DNA of 43,963 nucleotides from Methanomassiliicoccales archaeon (lineage in GTDB: Archaea > Thermoplasmatota > Thermoplasmata > Methanomassiliicoccales > UBA472): NCBI GenBank assembly GCA_036504055.1, contig DASXVU010000027.1, positions 1 to 43,963 on the forward strand, given 5' to 3'. The notes below the pieces were generated by a model, which did not search any database, was not told where the DNA came from, and saw only the letters and a list, made by a program, of their open reading frames with translations. Numbering within the stretch: the stretch's first letter is position 1; every line of letters begins with the position of its first letter. A program made the position numbers and the translations under genes. Positions 19,094 to 25,774 of this stretch are shown piece after piece.

Positions 19094-19462
19094 TTGAACC
19101 GTATAGCACAAGGCCTAGTCCTATTCGTCGCGATGTTCCTGATATTGTTGGGCGTGATCTTTCTAATAGCGTCGCGGATCGAGGACATGATCCTCGGTGC
19201 GGTTCTGGTCATGATCGCGGTGATGCTCCTGCTCTTCATCTACCGCAGCCAGAAGATAGAAGCGGCGAAACCGACATTGGTCACCCAGAACTTCGATGTT
19301 AAGATGGAAGGTTCTGGCACCATGGAGCAGAAGGAATTAAGATGCAAGACATGCGGGGCACCGCTTTCCGAGAAGAACCTGAAGGTAGTGGAAGGGGGCG
19401 TCGTCATGGTGTGTCCATACTGCAACACTGTCACATCCTTGCAGGAATCTCCCAAATGGTGA
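19094..19462 (+). CDS. Small membrane protein with C-terminal zinc ribbon
   Basis: A 122-residue protein. Two hydrophobic helices fill the first 50 residues (GLVLFVAMFLILLGVIFLIA and GAVLVMIAVMLLLFIY). After a linker, residues about 83-110 form a zinc ribbon (RCKTCGAPL and VCPYCNTV, two CxxC pairs) on the cytoplasmic side by the positive-inside rule. The start is TTG at 19094, with GGGGAG about 12 bases upstream. Its stop is 5 bases before the ATG of the tailed membrane protein, which uses this gene's end (GGTGAG) as ribosome-binding site, so it is probably part of the same radical SAM operon. Function unknown. Confidence 0.75.
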   Translation: MNRIAQGLVLFVAMFLILLGVIFLIASRIEDMILGAVLVMIAVMLLLFIYRSQKIEAAKPTLVTQNFDVKMEGSGTMEQKELRCKTCGAPLSEKNLKVVEGGVVMVCPYCNTVTSLQESPKW

Positions 19463-19467
19463 GAAAA

Positions 19468-21102
19468 ATGGAAGGACCATTGAGAATTGGATCGACCCGG
19501 AAGTTGTTGATGTTGGTTGTTTCGGCCTCTTTGATGCTATCCGCTCTCGGGCTCATCGGGAGTTCACCACTCGGTAGAGTGGAAGGGGCCAATCCTTCAT
19601 TCGGGCTCACCAGCGAGGACGTCAACGTGACCGTTCTGCGTGACGGCAGCGTCAACATCGACTATCACTTCCGTTTTAACAGCGCCAGCTCACTGGATGG
19701 CGTGGACATAGGTCTCCCGAACTCATATTACGACAGCTCATCAGCCTATGCCTGGGTCATCGTCCAAGGTTCGAACTACACTCCAGCCCAGGTACATGTC
19801 TCGCCATTCGTCAACCCAGGAATGGCGGTGGAGTTCGGTAGCTCTCTCCAGGGCCTGATCCAAAGCTCCAGCTTCTTCGATCTGTATTTTCATGTCAACA
19901 ATCCACACATGGTGTACCGGAACGACCTGGTAAACGGTTCCGTGGGAGTGAGCTTCCGGCCCACTTGGTTCGATGCCTCCTTCCAGAACGGACCTGCTGG
20001 CGTACTGACCGGGCACTTGATCTTCCCGATCGGCTTCGACAATGCCACTCAGGCCTACTGGCTGCAGTCGAATCCCTGGGATTCCCTGACCTTCGATAAT
20101 CTCACCAGCCGTACCGTGGCCTCCTGGACCTGGACGAACGCATATCCCGGTGCGGTGGCAGCCGGAACGTATGATTTCGGAGGAGGGTTCCCTGCGGTCT
20201 ATGTAGAGAAATACTTCGTGCCCGGGGTCTCATCGCCGGACGCCCTCGGCGATCTCATCGCCCTGATCGGGCTGCTTGCGCCCGTACTGGTCTTCGCATT
20301 CATCTTCGCGCTCGTGATCATCGTGAGCATCTCATCGGCCAGGCGGAGGAATGGGGACTACTACGAGCCAAAGATGAACGTGGTCGGGGCTGGTCCCCGC
20401 CGCGACCTGACGGCAGTGGAGGCGGCAGTGATACTTGAACGGCCGATTGAGAATGTGGCCACGATGATACTGTTCGGGCTCATCAAGAAAGGAAAGGTGC
20501 AGATCGCCTCGGAGGAGGCTCCCATGAGGCTTACGAAGATGGCGGAGACCGCCGATTATCCCTATGAGAACGACTATCTGAAGTCGATACTGCCTGACCA
20601 GACGGTGGGCCGGGCCGCATTGAAGAACACTCTGGTGCACCTTATCGAATCGACCCGGGACAAGATGAAGGGATTCGATCTGGAGGTCACCAAGCATTAC
20701 TATGAATCCATTGCGGACAAGGCCTGGCAACAGGTCAAGGAAGCGGGAACGCCGGAGGACATCGGGCGATTGCTAAACGAGAAGAACGAATGGATGATGC
20801 TGGACCGGGACTACCCCGGCAGGATGAACAGCCAGATCCTGATCCTGCCGATCCTGCTGGGAAACCGTAATGTGCCGGGAAACGCCGGACCCAACATCGC
20901 GCAGGCAGCATCGAGCTATGTTTCGCAGGTCAGATCGGCGGCCAGCAACCTGGTGAGCGATATGCGCGGCATCTCGCGGGACGTGGTCGCCGTGACCAAC
21001 CCGGTGCCGATCGCCGCCGCCAGCGGCTCCGGGATGTCGGGCGGCGGTCACTGCGCATGTGCCTGCGCCTGTGCCTGTGCATGTGCCGGAGGTGGACGAT
21101 GA
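19468..21102 (+). CDS. DUF2207-like membrane protein with C-terminal Cys-Ala repeat tail (candidate radical SAM substrate)
   Basis: A 544-residue protein. Residues 11-40 are a signal peptide or anchor; about 42-255 form an extracellular beta-rich domain with several N-glycosylation sequons, like the DUF2207 N-terminal domain (VTVLRDGSVNIDYHFRF). A transmembrane helix spans about 258-290, and ARRRN after it places residues 291-544 in the cytoplasm. The cytoplasmic part starts with a winged-helix-like segment (LTAVEAAVILERPIENVATM). The last 18 residues are GHCACACACACACAGGGR: six Cys-Ala pairs then Gly3-Arg. The ATG at 19468 has GGTGAG 6-11 bases upstream. The stop overlaps the start of a radical SAM/SPASM gene. 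I infer the tail is modified by that enzyme; redox or metal binding by the cysteines is an alternative. Confidence 0.85.
   Translation: MEGPLRIGSTRKLLMLVVSASLMLSALGLIGSSPLGRVEGANPSFGLTSEDVNVTVLRDGSVNIDYHFRFNSASSLDGVDIGLPNSYYDSSSAYAWVIVQGSNYTPAQVHVSPFVNPGMAVEFGSSLQGLIQSSSFFDLYFHVNNPHMVYRNDLVNGSVGVSFRPTWFDASFQNGPAGVLTGHLIFPIGFDNATQAYWLQSNPWDSLTFDNLTSRTVASWTWTNAYPGAVAAGTYDFGGGFPAVYVEKYFVPGVSSPDALGDLIALIGLLAPVLVFAFIFALVIIVSISSARRRNGDYYEPKMNVVGAGPRRDLTAVEAAVILERPIENVATMILFGLIKKGKVQIASEEAPMRLTKMAETADYPYENDYLKSILPDQTVGRAALKNTLVHLIESTRDKMKGFDLEVTKHYYESIADKAWQQVKEAGTPEDIGRLLNEKNEWMMLDRDYPGRMNSQILILPILLGNRNVPGNAGPNIAQAASSYVSQVRSAASNLVSDMRGISRDVVAVTNPVPIAAASGSGMSGGGHCACACACACACAGGGR
21052..21087 (+). 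repeat. Six Cys-Ala codon pairs encoding the tail repeat
   Basis: Alternating TGC/TGT and GCA/GCC codons encode (Cys-Ala)6. Both codons vary between units, so the repeat is held at the protein level rather than being a recent slippage product. It ends 12 bases of Gly-Gly-Gly-Arg before the stop codon. Confidence 0.85.
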
Positions 21103-22448
21103 GCCTAAGGGGGAGATGGCAGGAACTGGAAGGCAAAGGTCTCAAGCCAGGCGTGTACAAGTACGACGGCAGGGGGGACCTCAAGCAGCATCGGTTCCAT
21201 CTGCGGGTGGACTCGGAGAGCAAGGGGGCCTTGCTGGTGGACGCGGCCAGCATAATCTTCCTGAATGGGACGGCCGTCGACTACGTGCGATGCATCCTGG
21301 AAGGCCGGTCCGATAAGGCGGTCGTCAGGTACATGCGCCGCCGGTATCGCGGTCTGGGAAAGCCGCAGGCTTTGGAGCATTATAAGGGCATCAAGGCCCA
21401 GCTATCTACCTACCTGGAAGGGGATGGCGAGATCCTGAGCATGATCGGACCGGACAAGCCATCCATCGGCAAGGACGACTTCCCGGCCCCGTACCGGATG
21501 GACCTGGCCTTGACCTATAGGTGCCAGAACAAGTGCGACCATTGCTACAACGAACCCCGACAGATGAAAGAGCTGACCGTGGAACAATGGAAGCAGGTCA
21601 TCGACAAGACCTGGAGGCTGGGGATCCCCCACATCGTCTTCACCGGGGGAGAGCCGACGATGTTCGAGGGGTTGGCCGAACTGGTCGTCCTTTCGGAGAA
21701 GTACGGGCAGGTCACCGGCATGGTCTCGAACGGCAGGAACCTGGCCAAGCCTGGCTATCTTCATGACCTGGTGGTGAAAGGGCTGGACCATGTCCAGATA
21801 ACCGTGCTATCGTCACGCGAGGAGCTTCATGACCGTTTGGTGGGAGAGGCCGGAGCGTGGAAGGAGACCGTGGAGGGGTTAAGGACAGCTCTCCTGGAGC
21901 AGATGTACGTGAGCACGAACACCACCATCATGCGCTCCAATCTGGACGATCTGGAGGATACCATGCGTTCCCTCATCTCCCTGGGCGTCAGGAACATCGC
22001 CTTCAACGGCATCATCCGTTCTGGCAAAGGGGTAGGCACCGAAGGCATAACCTATGCGGAACTGGCATCGGCCCTGGTCAAGCTCAAGGAGATCGCCGCC
22101 GCGGCCCAGGTGAAGCTGATCTGGTACACTCCCACGCCATATCACGAGTTCAACCCGGTGAACTACGGGCTGGGGATCAAGCAATGCACCGCCTGCTCCC
22201 TCAACATGGCGATCGAACCGGACGGGACGGTCCTGCCTTGCCAGAGCTACTATGAGCCGCTGGGTAACATCCTGACCGACCCGTGGGACAAGATATGGGG
22301 CCACGACCTCTGCAAGAGGATCAGGGAAAGGAAGTATCTAGACGGGGAATGCCTGGAATGCGGAATGAAAGACGTCTGCGGGGGCGGTTGCCCCCTCTCC
22401 CGGAAGGCTGGGGATTACATCTGCCTGGACCGGCATTCGAGCATGTGA
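21099..22448 (+). CDS. Radical SAM/SPASM peptide-modifying enzyme with N-terminal PqqD/RRE-like domain
   Basis: A 449-residue enzyme. Residues about 30-85 have a PqqD-like pattern (GALLVDAASIIFLNGTAV then VVRYMRRRYRG), a likely leader- or substrate-recognition domain. The radical SAM core starts at Cys142, with Cys146 and Cys149 (RCQNKCDHCYNE, CX3CX2C) and the SAM-contact GGEPT motif (VFTGGEPTMFEG). The C-terminal SPASM region carries about nine cysteines, from CTACSLNMAI (363, 366) through 381 and 418-442 (CLECGMKDVCGGGC), enough for two auxiliary 4Fe-4S clusters. SPASM enzymes mature peptides by thioether or C-C crosslinks or other changes. Its ATG overlaps the stop of the Cys-Ala-tailed protein, so that protein is its likely substrate. 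Confidence 0.92.
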   Translation: MSLRGRWQELEGKGLKPGVYKYDGRGDLKQHRFHLRVDSESKGALLVDAASIIFLNGTAVDYVRCILEGRSDKAVVRYMRRRYRGLGKPQALEHYKGIKAQLSTYLEGDGEILSMIGPDKPSIGKDDFPAPYRMDLALTYRCQNKCDHCYNEPRQMKELTVEQWKQVIDKTWRLGIPHIVFTGGEPTMFEGLAELVVLSEKYGQVTGMVSNGRNLAKPGYLHDLVVKGLDHVQITVLSSREELHDRLVGEAGAWKETVEGLRTALLEQMYVSTNTTIMRSNLDDLEDTMRSLISLGVRNIAFNGIIRSGKGVGTEGITYAELASALVKLKEIAAAAQVKLIWYTPTPYHEFNPVNYGLGIKQCTACSLNMAIEPDGTVLPCQSYYEPLGNILTDPWDKIWGHDLCKRIRERKYLDGECLECGMKDVCGGGCPLSRKAGDYICLDRHSSM

Positions 22449-22452
22449 CCGG

Positions 22453-23202
22453 TCATTTGTTACCTATGGCATAGAAGACCGGATTGTAGAAGAGCAGTGA
22501 ACCGTCCGACGTCGCATCATTCCAGGCCTTCCTCGCCCTGTCCAAGGCCTTTCGGCCGATCATCGGCCGTGCCGCATCCTCGATGGAATCCCATTCCGAG
22601 GCGGCCTCGTTCCTCAGGCGACCGACGGTCCATGTTCCGGAATGGACCCCAACATCCGCGCGAAGGCCGGCATTCTCCATAAGCGCTCCCAGCCTCCTTC
22701 CTATGTAAGGGTCTGCCCCTTCGTCCATCATCGACCTGACCAGGTACTGGTCGAGGTCGGCAACCTCCTTTGGAACTACGATCCTTCCCCCATAGTCAGG
22801 TTCGGCCAGGCATACCACGTGCCTCCTTGCCACACGTGCCATTTCCTGAACGGCCCTCTGAGGGTCATCCACCCAAAGCAGTGTGAATGAACAATACACC
22901 ACATCGAAGCTGCCATCATCGAAAGGCAAGCTCATGGCGCTGGCCTGGAGGGCCTCGAATCCATTTTCTCTGGCCGTTCGCACCATCTGCGAGTCCTGAT
23001 CCAATCCCTTCACGTCGAACAGGGGGGAGAACAGCTCCATGACCAATCCGGGGCCGCACCCAACATCCAAGGCAGTAGGCCTTATGCCGGCCGGGTCCGA
23101 TTCCGGTAGGACCTTGCTACGAATCAGCCACAGCCAAGAATCGCTTAGCCATCCCAGCTGCCTGCGCAGCTGTTCTTCCGAGGTGACGCCTCTCCCGCTC
23201 AC
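22453..23202 (-). CDS. Class I SAM-dependent methyltransferase
   Basis: A 249-residue methyltransferase. Motif I LDVGCGPGLVMELF is near residues 45-58, motif II VKGLDQDSQMVRTA follows, then LQASAMSLPFDDGSFDVVYC with the post-motif acidic residue. This is the UbiE/Methyltransf_11 pattern. The acceptor is unknown. It is convergent with the radical SAM gene, only 4 bases from its stop, so it belongs to a different transcript despite being next to a possible RiPP locus. Confidence 0.9.
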   Translation of the reverse strand: MSGRGVTSEEQLRRQLGWLSDSWLWLIRSKVLPESDPAGIRPTALDVGCGPGLVMELFSPLFDVKGLDQDSQMVRTARENGFEALQASAMSLPFDDGSFDVVYCSFTLLWVDDPQRAVQEMARVARRHVVCLAEPDYGGRIVVPKEVADLDQYLVRSMMDEGADPYIGRRLGALMENAGLRADVGVHSGTWTVGRLRNEAASEWDSIEDAARPMIGRKALDRARKAWNDATSDGSLLFYNPVFYAIGNK

Positions 23203-23409: not shown

Positions 23410-23430
23410 CAAGGGCGGCATTCAAGCCCG

Positions 23431-24795
23431 ATGGGTTACACCGAATATGTAAACTCTTTCGAGGAAAGGGTCCAGAAGTACCGGCCTACTGGCTCGGAGT
23501 GGACTCCCGCAGATAAGGCGGTCTACGGACCAACGGATCTGTTCCGCGTCCCCACAGAAGAGGCAGATGCCCTGAGGTTCGATGCGGTCAAGTATCAATT
23601 CACCCGTCATTATGCGGAGAACCCGATGTACCGTGGGTTCTGCCAGGACGCCGGGATATCGCCCCTGGACATCAGATCGCTGACCGACCTGTCCAAGGTC
23701 CCTCTGATCCAGAGCGAGTTCTTCAAATCGCATCCGGAAGGTCGGGATTTCGCCACCTGGTTGGGCAATATCTATACCGGTGAGTTGCCGCAGGTGAAGA
23801 TCAGCGGCAAAGAGCCGACCTATGACCAGGTCATCGAGGCCTTCAACGAGTCCGGACTGGTCACCACTTACAGCAGCGGAACGGGCGGGCGGCATACCTT
23901 TGTTCCCCGTGACCGCAGGAGCTTCAACATCAACGAGTATGCCATGGCCAAGAGCGTCATTTCCATGTTCTATCCCCGTTGGAACCCAGGAATGTATGGA
24001 TATCTCCTGCTTCCCAACCCCTTCAAGACCAATCTGTTCGCCGGACGTTTGGGGACCATCTATTATGACATCATGAAGGATGTAGAGTGTGCGGTGGACC
24101 GGGTCATCGACACCGAACTGATCAAACTGACCATGAGCGACGACAAGAGCCTGAAGTCCCGACTGGTCAAGAAGATGTCCAGCCGTGCCCAGAAGAAGGC
24201 CGTCGGCGATATCATCACCTGGATCGAACACCGGGAGAGGTCGAAGGAGGAGATGGCGTTCTGCGGAGCACCTTTCATTCTATACTCGGTCATCCAGCGC
24301 CTCAAGGAGGAGGGCCGCAGGTTCGATATCGGTAGCCGAGGCCTCGTGCTGACCGGAGGGGGCTGGAAGGTGCAGGAGCTGAAACGTATTCCGGAAACGG
24401 AGTTCCGCAAGGACATCCAAGACTATCTCGGCATTCCGCCAGAGAACGTGGTGGACATGTACGGAATGGTGGAAGGCAATGGCTGGATGGTGCAGTGTCC
24501 GGAGGGCCACCATCTCCACATACCCACGACCTACATCCACCCGATGGTTCTGGATGACAATTTCAGCCCGCTCGGATATGGTGAATCCGGAAGGTTCGCA
24601 TTCCTGGACGGTTCCATGTACAGCTATCCCGCCTTCATAATCACCGGGGACCGGGTCAAGATGCTGGAGCGCTGCCCAGTTTGCGGAAGGCCGGGCCCGG
24701 TCCTTGAGCCTGGTGTGACCCGCGCCGCCGGCAAGGAGACGCGCGGATGCGCCGAAGAGGTAAGGAAGGTCATGTCCGCGGACATGGGGGGATGA
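23431..24795 (+). CDS. LuxE/PaaK-like acyl-adenylating enzyme
   Basis: A 454-residue member of the adenylate-forming superfamily, closest by motif to acyl-protein synthetase (LuxE) and phenylacetate-CoA ligase (PaaK). The ATP phosphate loop is YSSGTGGRHTFVPRD near residue 150, and the adenine region VVDMYGMVEGNGWMVQC near residue 345 matches the LuxE-type YG motif. The N-terminal LRFDAVKYQFTRHYAENPMY is also LuxE-like. A late cysteine pair (ERCPVCGRPG) may bind zinc. It activates a carboxylate as acyl-AMP and passes it to a thiol or amine; substrate unknown. The ATG is at leaderless distance from a TATA box. The next gene starts 1 base after this stop. Confidence 0.85.
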   Translation: MGYTEYVNSFEERVQKYRPTGSEWTPADKAVYGPTDLFRVPTEEADALRFDAVKYQFTRHYAENPMYRGFCQDAGISPLDIRSLTDLSKVPLIQSEFFKSHPEGRDFATWLGNIYTGELPQVKISGKEPTYDQVIEAFNESGLVTTYSSGTGGRHTFVPRDRRSFNINEYAMAKSVISMFYPRWNPGMYGYLLLPNPFKTNLFAGRLGTIYYDIMKDVECAVDRVIDTELIKLTMSDDKSLKSRLVKKMSSRAQKKAVGDIITWIEHRERSKEEMAFCGAPFILYSVIQRLKEEGRRFDIGSRGLVLTGGGWKVQELKRIPETEFRKDIQDYLGIPPENVVDMYGMVEGNGWMVQCPEGHHLHIPTTYIHPMVLDDNFSPLGYGESGRFAFLDGSMYSYPAFIITGDRVKMLERCPVCGRPGPVLEPGVTRAAGKETRGCAEEVRKVMSADMGG

Positions 24796-24796
24796 G

Positions 24797-25774
24797 ATGG
24801 CTGGTCTCAGGAGGATGAAGGAAATGGGCTACGTGCCGCAGCGGACCTTCTTCAGCCAGATGGTCCGCGGTGGAATATCGATCTCAAGGATCATCCTTCT
24901 GAACATGAGGGAGCTGAAGCGCACCCGGGTCATTCCAGATGATGCGGAGCGCTACGTCCTGCCGAAACTGCAGTACTCCATCCCGGTCTACAGGGAAGGA
25001 ATGAGGTACTGCGATAAGGACGAGAAGTACCTGAGACCGACCCTGCACTGCGATTCCCATGACCCTCTGGTCATCGCCATGGCCAACGAGCTCGGGGCGT
25101 TCCAGGTGTCCGACCGCGAGTTCGCCGAGCGGGCATTCCATTTTGTCAAAGAGAATTTGATGCTGGATGAGCGTCCGATGAACCCGGTCGCGGACACGCT
25201 GGGGCGCGGGACCGGGACCTGCTTCCATCTCATCAGCGCCTACATCGCCCTCTGCCGTTGTGCCGGAATCAAGGCCAGGTACAAGATATTCTCGATGAAG
25301 ATGATCCCATCATGGTATGATGTGGTCATCCAGCCCGACCCGTTCATCAAAAGATGGTATGATACCTTGGGGTATTTCGTCCTGGAGGGCGAAGGGGAGG
25401 TCTTCGTGGACGGCGAATGGCTGGTGGCCAACGTCACTCCCGAGGCGGAATGGCAGGCGGCAGCCGGTACGGCGATCAACAAGCTGGGAGAGGATTCCAT
25501 CGGCAGCTGGTACAATGCCGTGCCCGGCACGATCATGCGCATGGAATCGATACCCTACGGGTTCGCGGCATCGCTCGAGGTCCTCCATATCGTTTCACCG
25601 GGATCTATGGAGCGGGTCAACATAAGCATCAAGAAACAGAAAGAGCTGGGCCGCAGGATCATCGAATCAGCCGGCGGGGTCGACGCTTATGACAGGATCG
25701 CCCGTTCGAGACAGGGGTTCAAGTGCCCCAAGGTCATGCTCGAGCTTAAGAAACAGATAGTGTTCGACGACTAA
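24797..25774 (+). CDS. Transglutaminase-fold protein with altered catalytic residues
   Basis: A 325-residue protein with a transglutaminase/protease-like core. The nucleophile segment GRGTGTCFHLISAYIALCRC has Cys142, followed by AGIKARYK as in microbial transglutaminase-like domains. The normal His and Asp positions seem changed: LGYFVLEGEGEVFVDG has no histidine where one is expected, and WLVANVTPE has Asn212 where DPT is usual. So hydrolysis may be lost, or another residue takes over. Three cysteines are near 142-155. It starts 1 base after the LuxE-like gene, so the two proteins very likely act together. The substrate is unknown. Confidence 0.75.
   Translation: MAGLRRMKEMGYVPQRTFFSQMVRGGISISRIILLNMRELKRTRVIPDDAERYVLPKLQYSIPVYREGMRYCDKDEKYLRPTLHCDSHDPLVIAMANELGAFQVSDREFAERAFHFVKENLMLDERPMNPVADTLGRGTGTCFHLISAYIALCRCAGIKARYKIFSMKMIPSWYDVVIQPDPFIKRWYDTLGYFVLEGEGEVFVDGEWLVANVTPEAEWQAAAGTAINKLGEDSIGSWYNAVPGTIMRMESIPYGFAASLEVLHIVSPGSMERVNISIKKQKELGRRIIESAGGVDAYDRIARSRQGFKCPKVMLELKKQIVFDD

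Follow-up and report, generated by a model that had tools for sequence, protein, structure and literature searches.

A poly-(Cys-Ala) membrane-protein tail as the probable substrate of an adjacent radical SAM/SPASM enzyme in archaea and bacteria

Short, rapidly evolving antibiotic peptides are the best-known setting of radical SAM peptide chemistry. PQQ and mycofactocin arise from precursor peptides as well, and besides thioethers SPASM enzymes form C–C bonds, oxidise or epimerise. Among the SPASM/RRE enzymes, SkfB, CteB and RumMC2 link the sulfur atom of Cys to an alpha-carbon (PMC6231123, PMC8188230), and RumMC2 can take Ala as the thioether acceptor (PMC8188230). Membrane proteins of the TIGR04222 family, which have C-terminal segments rich in Cys and are encoded beside MNIO enzymes, were proposed in 2025 to be MNIO substrates (PMC12452194). 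They are the closest precedent for the locus described here, and one precedent for a modified membrane-protein tail.

The window, that is, the whole stretch of DNA that was analysed, spans 43,963 nucleotides of a contig from a Methanomassiliicoccales archaeon. The original prediction, made from its letters, described a 544-residue membrane protein with a (Cys-Ala)6 tail, whose stop codon overlaps the start of a radical SAM enzyme, and proposed the tail as that enzyme's substrate. The arrangement was confirmed, with the two ORFs at 19468–21102 and 21099–22448. The two-gene picture held for these genes but had missed a methyltransferase, a zinc-ribbon protein and, in bacteria, a pseudo-radical SAM protein. 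Taken as a whole, we consider it probable that the enzyme modifies the tail, which then stays in place as a cofactor-like group. The features of the locus are as follows.

19094–19462, plus strand: zinc-ribbon protein with a membrane anchor (122 aa), its gene immediately upstream of that for the tailed protein; conserved homologues
19468–21102, plus strand: tailed membrane protein (544 aa), proposed substrate; ORF, with AlphaFold2 and hydropathy topology
21049–21099, plus strand: C-terminal tail H(CA)6GGGR, proposed core for modification; kept in complete homologues
21099–22448, plus strand: radical SAM/SPASM enzyme (449 aa) with an N-terminal PqqD-like RRE, proposed tail maturase; Pfam
22453–23202, minus strand: class I SAM-dependent methyltransferase of the LLWV...EPDY family, encoded convergently; Pfam Methyltransf_11, 1.4e-21

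The tailed protein and the enzyme

The tailed protein begins with a signal-like helix (residues 13–31), followed by an extracytoplasmic beta domain (about 44–245; AlphaFold2 and hydropathy). Both methods agree on a single transmembrane helix at 267–285, followed by SSARRR, with no transmembrane segment further on. A helical domain, predicted to be cytoplasmic, then leads into a disordered linker and the tail, again by both methods. Because there is one transmembrane helix, with SSARRR after it and none later, the tail is predicted to lie on the cytoplasmic side, as originally proposed, and enzyme and tail are therefore predicted to share a compartment. The C-terminus reads HCACACACACACAGGGR. 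The coding end of the ORF is ...GGGHCACACACACACAGGGR (21049–21099) and the next codon is TGA; the enzyme start at 21099 overlaps this stop (ATGA).

Searches of Pfam and NCBIfam returned no family for this protein. It had been called DUF2207-like, a likeness that is one of fold and architecture only: Pfam DUF2207 (PF09972 / PF20990) misses the window protein, and among 46 homologues there was one match at E 0.045 and one at 0.079. Foldseek returned ribophorin I of OST and M1 aminopeptidases, which were set aside as uninformative, being weak and partial matches to the beta domain (TM-score ~0.25).

Homologues of the tailed protein are present in 25 of the 147 Methanomassiliicoccales genomes, with 48–60% identity in the body. 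They were found by a whole-protein search that imposed none of the tail residues, and every one with its C-terminus on the contig and an intact frame ends exactly in (CA)6GGGR. The linker before the tail varies completely among these proteins. The homologue in genome G139 carries a premature stop ahead of the tail, whose codons were still found by pattern; recoding of this TGA was considered and rejected, since it occupies a Trp position and has the look of an error or decay. The last ten residues, CACACAGGGR, were compared in 131 loci, where 126 different DNA sequences encode them. This argues that selection acts at the peptide level, although in the pattern-fetched bacterial loci most of the tail residues were imposed by the search itself. 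The tail takes the forms (CA)6, (CA)4-G-(CA)3, (CA)3-G-(CA)3, (CA)5-G-(CA)3, (CA)3-G-(CA)4 and (CA)2-G-(CA)4, each followed by GGGR. The spacer between cysteines is Ala at nearly every position of every tail, GGGR is fixed, and some bacteria encode two tailed proteins in tandem. Judged by its conservation, the tail is no chance repeat.

The enzyme matches the Pfam models Radical_SAM (2.1e-20) and SPASM (4.1e-9), and its radical SAM motif CxxxCxxC (C142, C146, C149) is invariant in 46/46 homologues. The nine-cysteine SPASM region of the original prediction was recovered: nine cysteines lie from residue 363 onward, and seven of them fit the consensus CX9-15GX4C..CX2CX5CX3C..C as stated in PMC6231123. 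In the window copy this motif reads C363-G376-C381-C418-C421-C427-C431-C442, and its last cysteine is present in 29/46 homologues as aligned. The PqqD/RRE-like N-terminus held for the family, with 39 of the 46 homologues matching PF05402 (best E 4.7e-9), but not for the window copy alone, which falls below threshold. The best PDB matches to the AlphaFold2 model (mean pLDDT 86) are SkfB, SuiB and CteB, each of them an RRE-containing RiPP enzyme. A profile search of solved structures placed SkfB first (2e-31) and PqqE second (2e-27), with SkfB aligned by sequence from profile position 48, so that the RRE is included. Since all NCBIfam scores are far below curated cut-offs, the enzyme belongs to a separate, unnamed family.

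Distribution and co-inheritance

A scan of genome contigs for the system gave at least 118 stretches, of which about 108 are judged genuine. The other matches to the pattern, about ten (Acetobacter, Pseudomonas, Sulfitobacter and others), were attributed to chance, with neither a protein nor an enzyme homologue adjoining. Among the matches listed, the archaeal carriers are Thermoplasmatota and the Asgard groups Heimdall-, Hod- and Sigynarchaeota and Hermodarchaeum, and the bacterial carriers are Chloroflexota, Aminicenantes, Zixibacteria, Coatesbacteria, Fermentibacteria, Edwardsbacteria, Armatimonadetes, Pirellulales and Acidobacteriota.

Of the 147 genomes of the order Methanomassiliicoccales, 24 carry the tail pattern; these are also the ones with the enzyme (E<=1e-60), and the other 123 have neither. 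The 249 Anaerolineae genomes (thresholds E<1e-100 for the enzyme and E<=1e-15 for tailed-protein homologues) include 30 with the tail, all among the 34 with the enzyme. Four Anaerolineae genomes have the enzyme and no tail: in three it lies at a contig end, while G167 has it on a long contig and no tail was found, a point against the tail as substrate. Tailed-protein homologues occur in the same 30 genomes as the tail and in no others; thus, no untailed homologues were seen. Fisher tests gave 1e-34 for Anaerolineae, with values ranging from 1e-28 to 1e-35, all of which ignore relatedness; presence is patchy at the genus level. Two contrary patterns raised by the original prediction were also looked for. 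The first was tailed proteins that occur without the enzyme; the enzyme accompanies the tail in 24/24 genomes of the order and 30/30 Anaerolineae, and where the fetched tail locus lacked a radical SAM gene, 15/16 genomes encode the enzyme elsewhere. The second was enzyme homologues beside other peptides; their neighbours are tailed membrane proteins, including those of a sister subfamily. It is important to note that this co-inheritance could also fit an enzyme and a tailed protein that share a pathway acting on something else.

The sister subfamily provides a parallel system with a different tail. Its enzymes, 33–37% identical to the CA enzyme, are encoded directly downstream of a (CHSA)n-tailed membrane protein in 17/21 loci. 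The (CHSA)n tail is invariant and occurs in 29 genomes of the Anaerolineae sample, all among the 31 with the cousin enzyme; in the two remaining genomes the enzyme lies at or near a contig end. Comparison of the CA- and CHSA-tailed proteins without their tails showed the two families to be homologous (hhalign probability 99.9, E 4e-31). No genome in the sample carries both systems, and neither enzyme goes with the other's tail. The enzyme tree places the CHSA enzymes in a single group with full support, whereas the CA enzymes are sorted by tail subtype. This match of enzyme clade to tail type is the strongest evidence that the enzyme would recognise the tail. In both tail types Ala precedes nearly every Cys, which suggests Ala-Cys as the chemical unit. 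The CHSA loci of Anaerolineae include L206–L210 and L218–L230, and in several of them a protein of ~387 aa and a zinc-ribbon protein come after the pair.

Because the CA pair is co-inherited, and the CHSA pair likewise with its cousin enzyme, the enzyme very probably remodels the tail. The claim that the tail, and not a separate short peptide, is the substrate gains support from this co-inheritance and from the match of tail type to enzyme clade, and we would assign the tail to the adjacent RRE/radical SAM/SPASM enzyme with high confidence. Short, separate precursors are usual in sactipeptide systems, as is generally known and has been reviewed (PMC5682303, PMC8172795), and by that analogy the true substrate could be a separate short peptide of the operon, with the tail incidental. 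However, ~130 loci held no recurrent family of short Cys-rich ORFs above a 60-aa cut-off, and tail and enzyme are inherited together almost without exception, with the tail type tracking the enzyme clade. We therefore regard a separate peptide as very improbable.

The tail could instead be a bare thiolate strip of CxC repeats for a metal or cluster, which the radical SAM enzyme uses, repairs or is regulated by, without modifying it. Runs of CxC are generally known to bind soft metals in proteins, and the zinc-ribbon partner is conserved. A near-constant Ala spacer and a fixed GGGR would nevertheless be needless for plain metal binding, and the RRE domain and the closest kinship, which is to peptide crosslinkers, fit a peptide substrate. 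A different tail also goes with a different enzyme clade. We consider an unmodified strip improbable.

Partner genes and the fate of the tail

The only widely recurring neighbours are the zinc-ribbon protein, the tailed protein, the radical SAM enzyme and the methyltransferase. The zinc-ribbon protein starts with a hydrophobic helix or hairpin, has two CxxC pairs and ends in ESPKW; homologues lie directly upstream of the tailed protein both in Methanomassiliicoccales and in Chloroflexota, where the C-terminus is EEPKW. Using an HMM, the same methyltransferase family was found adjoining the system in archaea, in Chloroflexota and in type III loci, and in 49 of the 72 loci with at least 3.6 kb of downstream sequence. 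It is convergent in Methanomassiliicoccales, co-directional in Chloroflexota and directly after the tail in a third layout. In Chloroflexota, a second radical SAM paralogue follows the active enzyme, and it is read as a pseudo-enzyme because CxxxCxxC is visibly gone and few cysteines are left in most copies. It lies beside the active enzyme in L105 (after +1365), in L113 (at −3260) and in ~36 other loci of Chloroflexota and Armatimonadetes; it may act as a scaffold.

Several loci carry further genes. The layout in L212 and L213 consists of the radical SAM gene, a gene that resembles Ser/Thr protein kinases in sequence only, the pseudo-radical SAM gene, tandem tailed proteins and the methyltransferase, an arrangement that hints at regulation. 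In four Heimdallarchaeota loci (L055, L070, L082, L155) the tail is followed, ~3 kb downstream, by a desulfoferrodoxin gene (Pfam E 3e-32 in L055), accompanied by a coiled-coil protein, a hint of a redox or oxygen-stress context. In the Anaerolineae loci L056, L110, L120 and L124, a PAS-domain protein (F12) and/or an unnamed protein of 335 aa (F13) lies near or between the active and pseudo-radical SAM genes. The window itself has a LuxE-type acyl-protein synthetase gene and then another, unassigned gene at 23422–25774. A similar pair in L028 lies ~4–5 kb upstream of the tail, and the pair thus has no fixed place in the system.

No protease or exporter family recurs in the neighbourhoods of the ~130 tail loci, in agreement with the original prediction, which had seen neither gene. 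For this reason, we lean towards the modified tail remaining on the protein. If the tail were instead modified and then cut off, it would give a small diffusible cofactor or peptide, and the membrane protein would be a carrier to be discarded or recycled. The enzyme's closest solved relatives include PqqE, the tail sequence is invariant as in a cofactor and unlike antibiotic core peptides, and the methyltransferase partner suggests further tailoring, all of which would suit such a release. No protease family is conserved nearby, however, although a housekeeping protease could still serve, and a membrane protein of 544 aa would be a costly carrier. We judge release unlikely, though a serious contender.

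In the preferred reading, in which the enzyme modifies a tail that stays attached, the folded, membrane-bound part of the protein would be an oversized leader, and the enzyme would work along the tail on the cytoplasmic face. The most likely link would be a sactionine-type thioether between Cys sulfur and Ala carbon; Cys-Ala chemistry with Ala as the acceptor falls only slightly short of an even prospect. The conserved methyltransferase would perhaps methylate or cap the product afterwards. Given a near-invariant tail, the product should be a fixed one, for instance a redox or metal group bound to the protein, and not a diversifying antibiotic. The mature tail may be a compact, invariant group facing the cytoplasm, either cofactor-like or handling metals or redox, and we offer the metal or redox role only tentatively. 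It is possible, though we would not yet favour it, that the system represents a new class of membrane-tethered, protein-bound prosthetic group, in which a poly-(Cys-Ala) tail becomes a crosslinked redox or metal centre at the inner membrane face. We extend that reading, with the same reserve, to the methyltransferase, zinc-ribbon and bacterial pseudo-radical SAM partners, to archaea and bacteria alike, and to the parallel (CHSA)n version.

Comparison with known systems and significance

In the open-access literature, no paper pairs DUF2207 with radical SAM, and subscription papers could hold a description; searches of the same literature for CA tail strings found nothing, and 'CHSACHSAC' was likewise absent from the papers checked. 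As for ready-made models of predicted systems, the TIGR04222 model does not match the window's tailed protein, and the CHSA-tailed homologue reaches it at E 1.1e-9 and 38.3 bits, against a cut-off of 43, through its cytoplasmic domain and not its tail. MNIO (PF05114) was considered as the alternative enzyme and rejected, being absent from 17/19 tail-bearing genomes tested, including that of the window (G000); two have a match.

The enzyme shares with SkfB (6efn), CteB (5wgg), SuiB (5v1q) and RumMC2 the order of RRE, radical SAM and SPASM/Twitch domains and the 7-Cys SPASM motif, and as with the sactipeptide and ranthipeptide maturases, a Cys-containing candidate substrate is encoded next door. 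Unlike in sactipeptide systems, the candidate core forms the C-terminus of a membrane protein of 544 aa, with no short leader-core precursor. The locus also departs from sactipeptide and ranthipeptide systems in having no conserved protease or exporter, a core that is invariant across two domains of life, and extra methyltransferase, zinc-ribbon and (in bacteria) pseudo-radical SAM partners. An invariant core that suggests a fixed, cofactor-like product recalls PQQ/PqqE and mycofactocin; in contrast to those systems, there is no small precursor peptide, and the enzyme scores 112 bits against a PqqE cut-off of 381. The predicted radical SAM systems of NCBIfam (ACGX, His-Xaa-Ser, GeoRSP) resemble it in pairing SPASM enzymes with repetitive targets, and the ACGX model gives sub-threshold matches to both enzyme subfamilies, all such scores being far below curated cut-offs.

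If the reading is true, the target here is a fixed membrane-protein tail, unchanged from archaea to bacteria while the other residues are ~70% different. A tail so unchanged between the two domains would therefore point to a core physiological function, not warfare. With two tail types and an enzyme clade to match each, substrate recognition could be probed by exchanging tails, and the cultured carriers Ornatilinea apprima, Levilinea saccharolytica and Leptolinea sp. HRD-7 make mass spectrometry of the native protein feasible. Like TIGR04222/MNIO, the system would be a proposed RiPP-type modification of a Cys-rich C-terminal tail on a larger membrane protein; unlike it, the enzyme is a radical SAM protein, and the tail has one fixed sequence and is predicted to be cytoplasmic, where theirs is periplasmic. 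Covalent tail modification of the unexplained membrane proteins of the DUF2207/TIGR04222 type would thus be tied to a second enzyme class, unrelated to the first.
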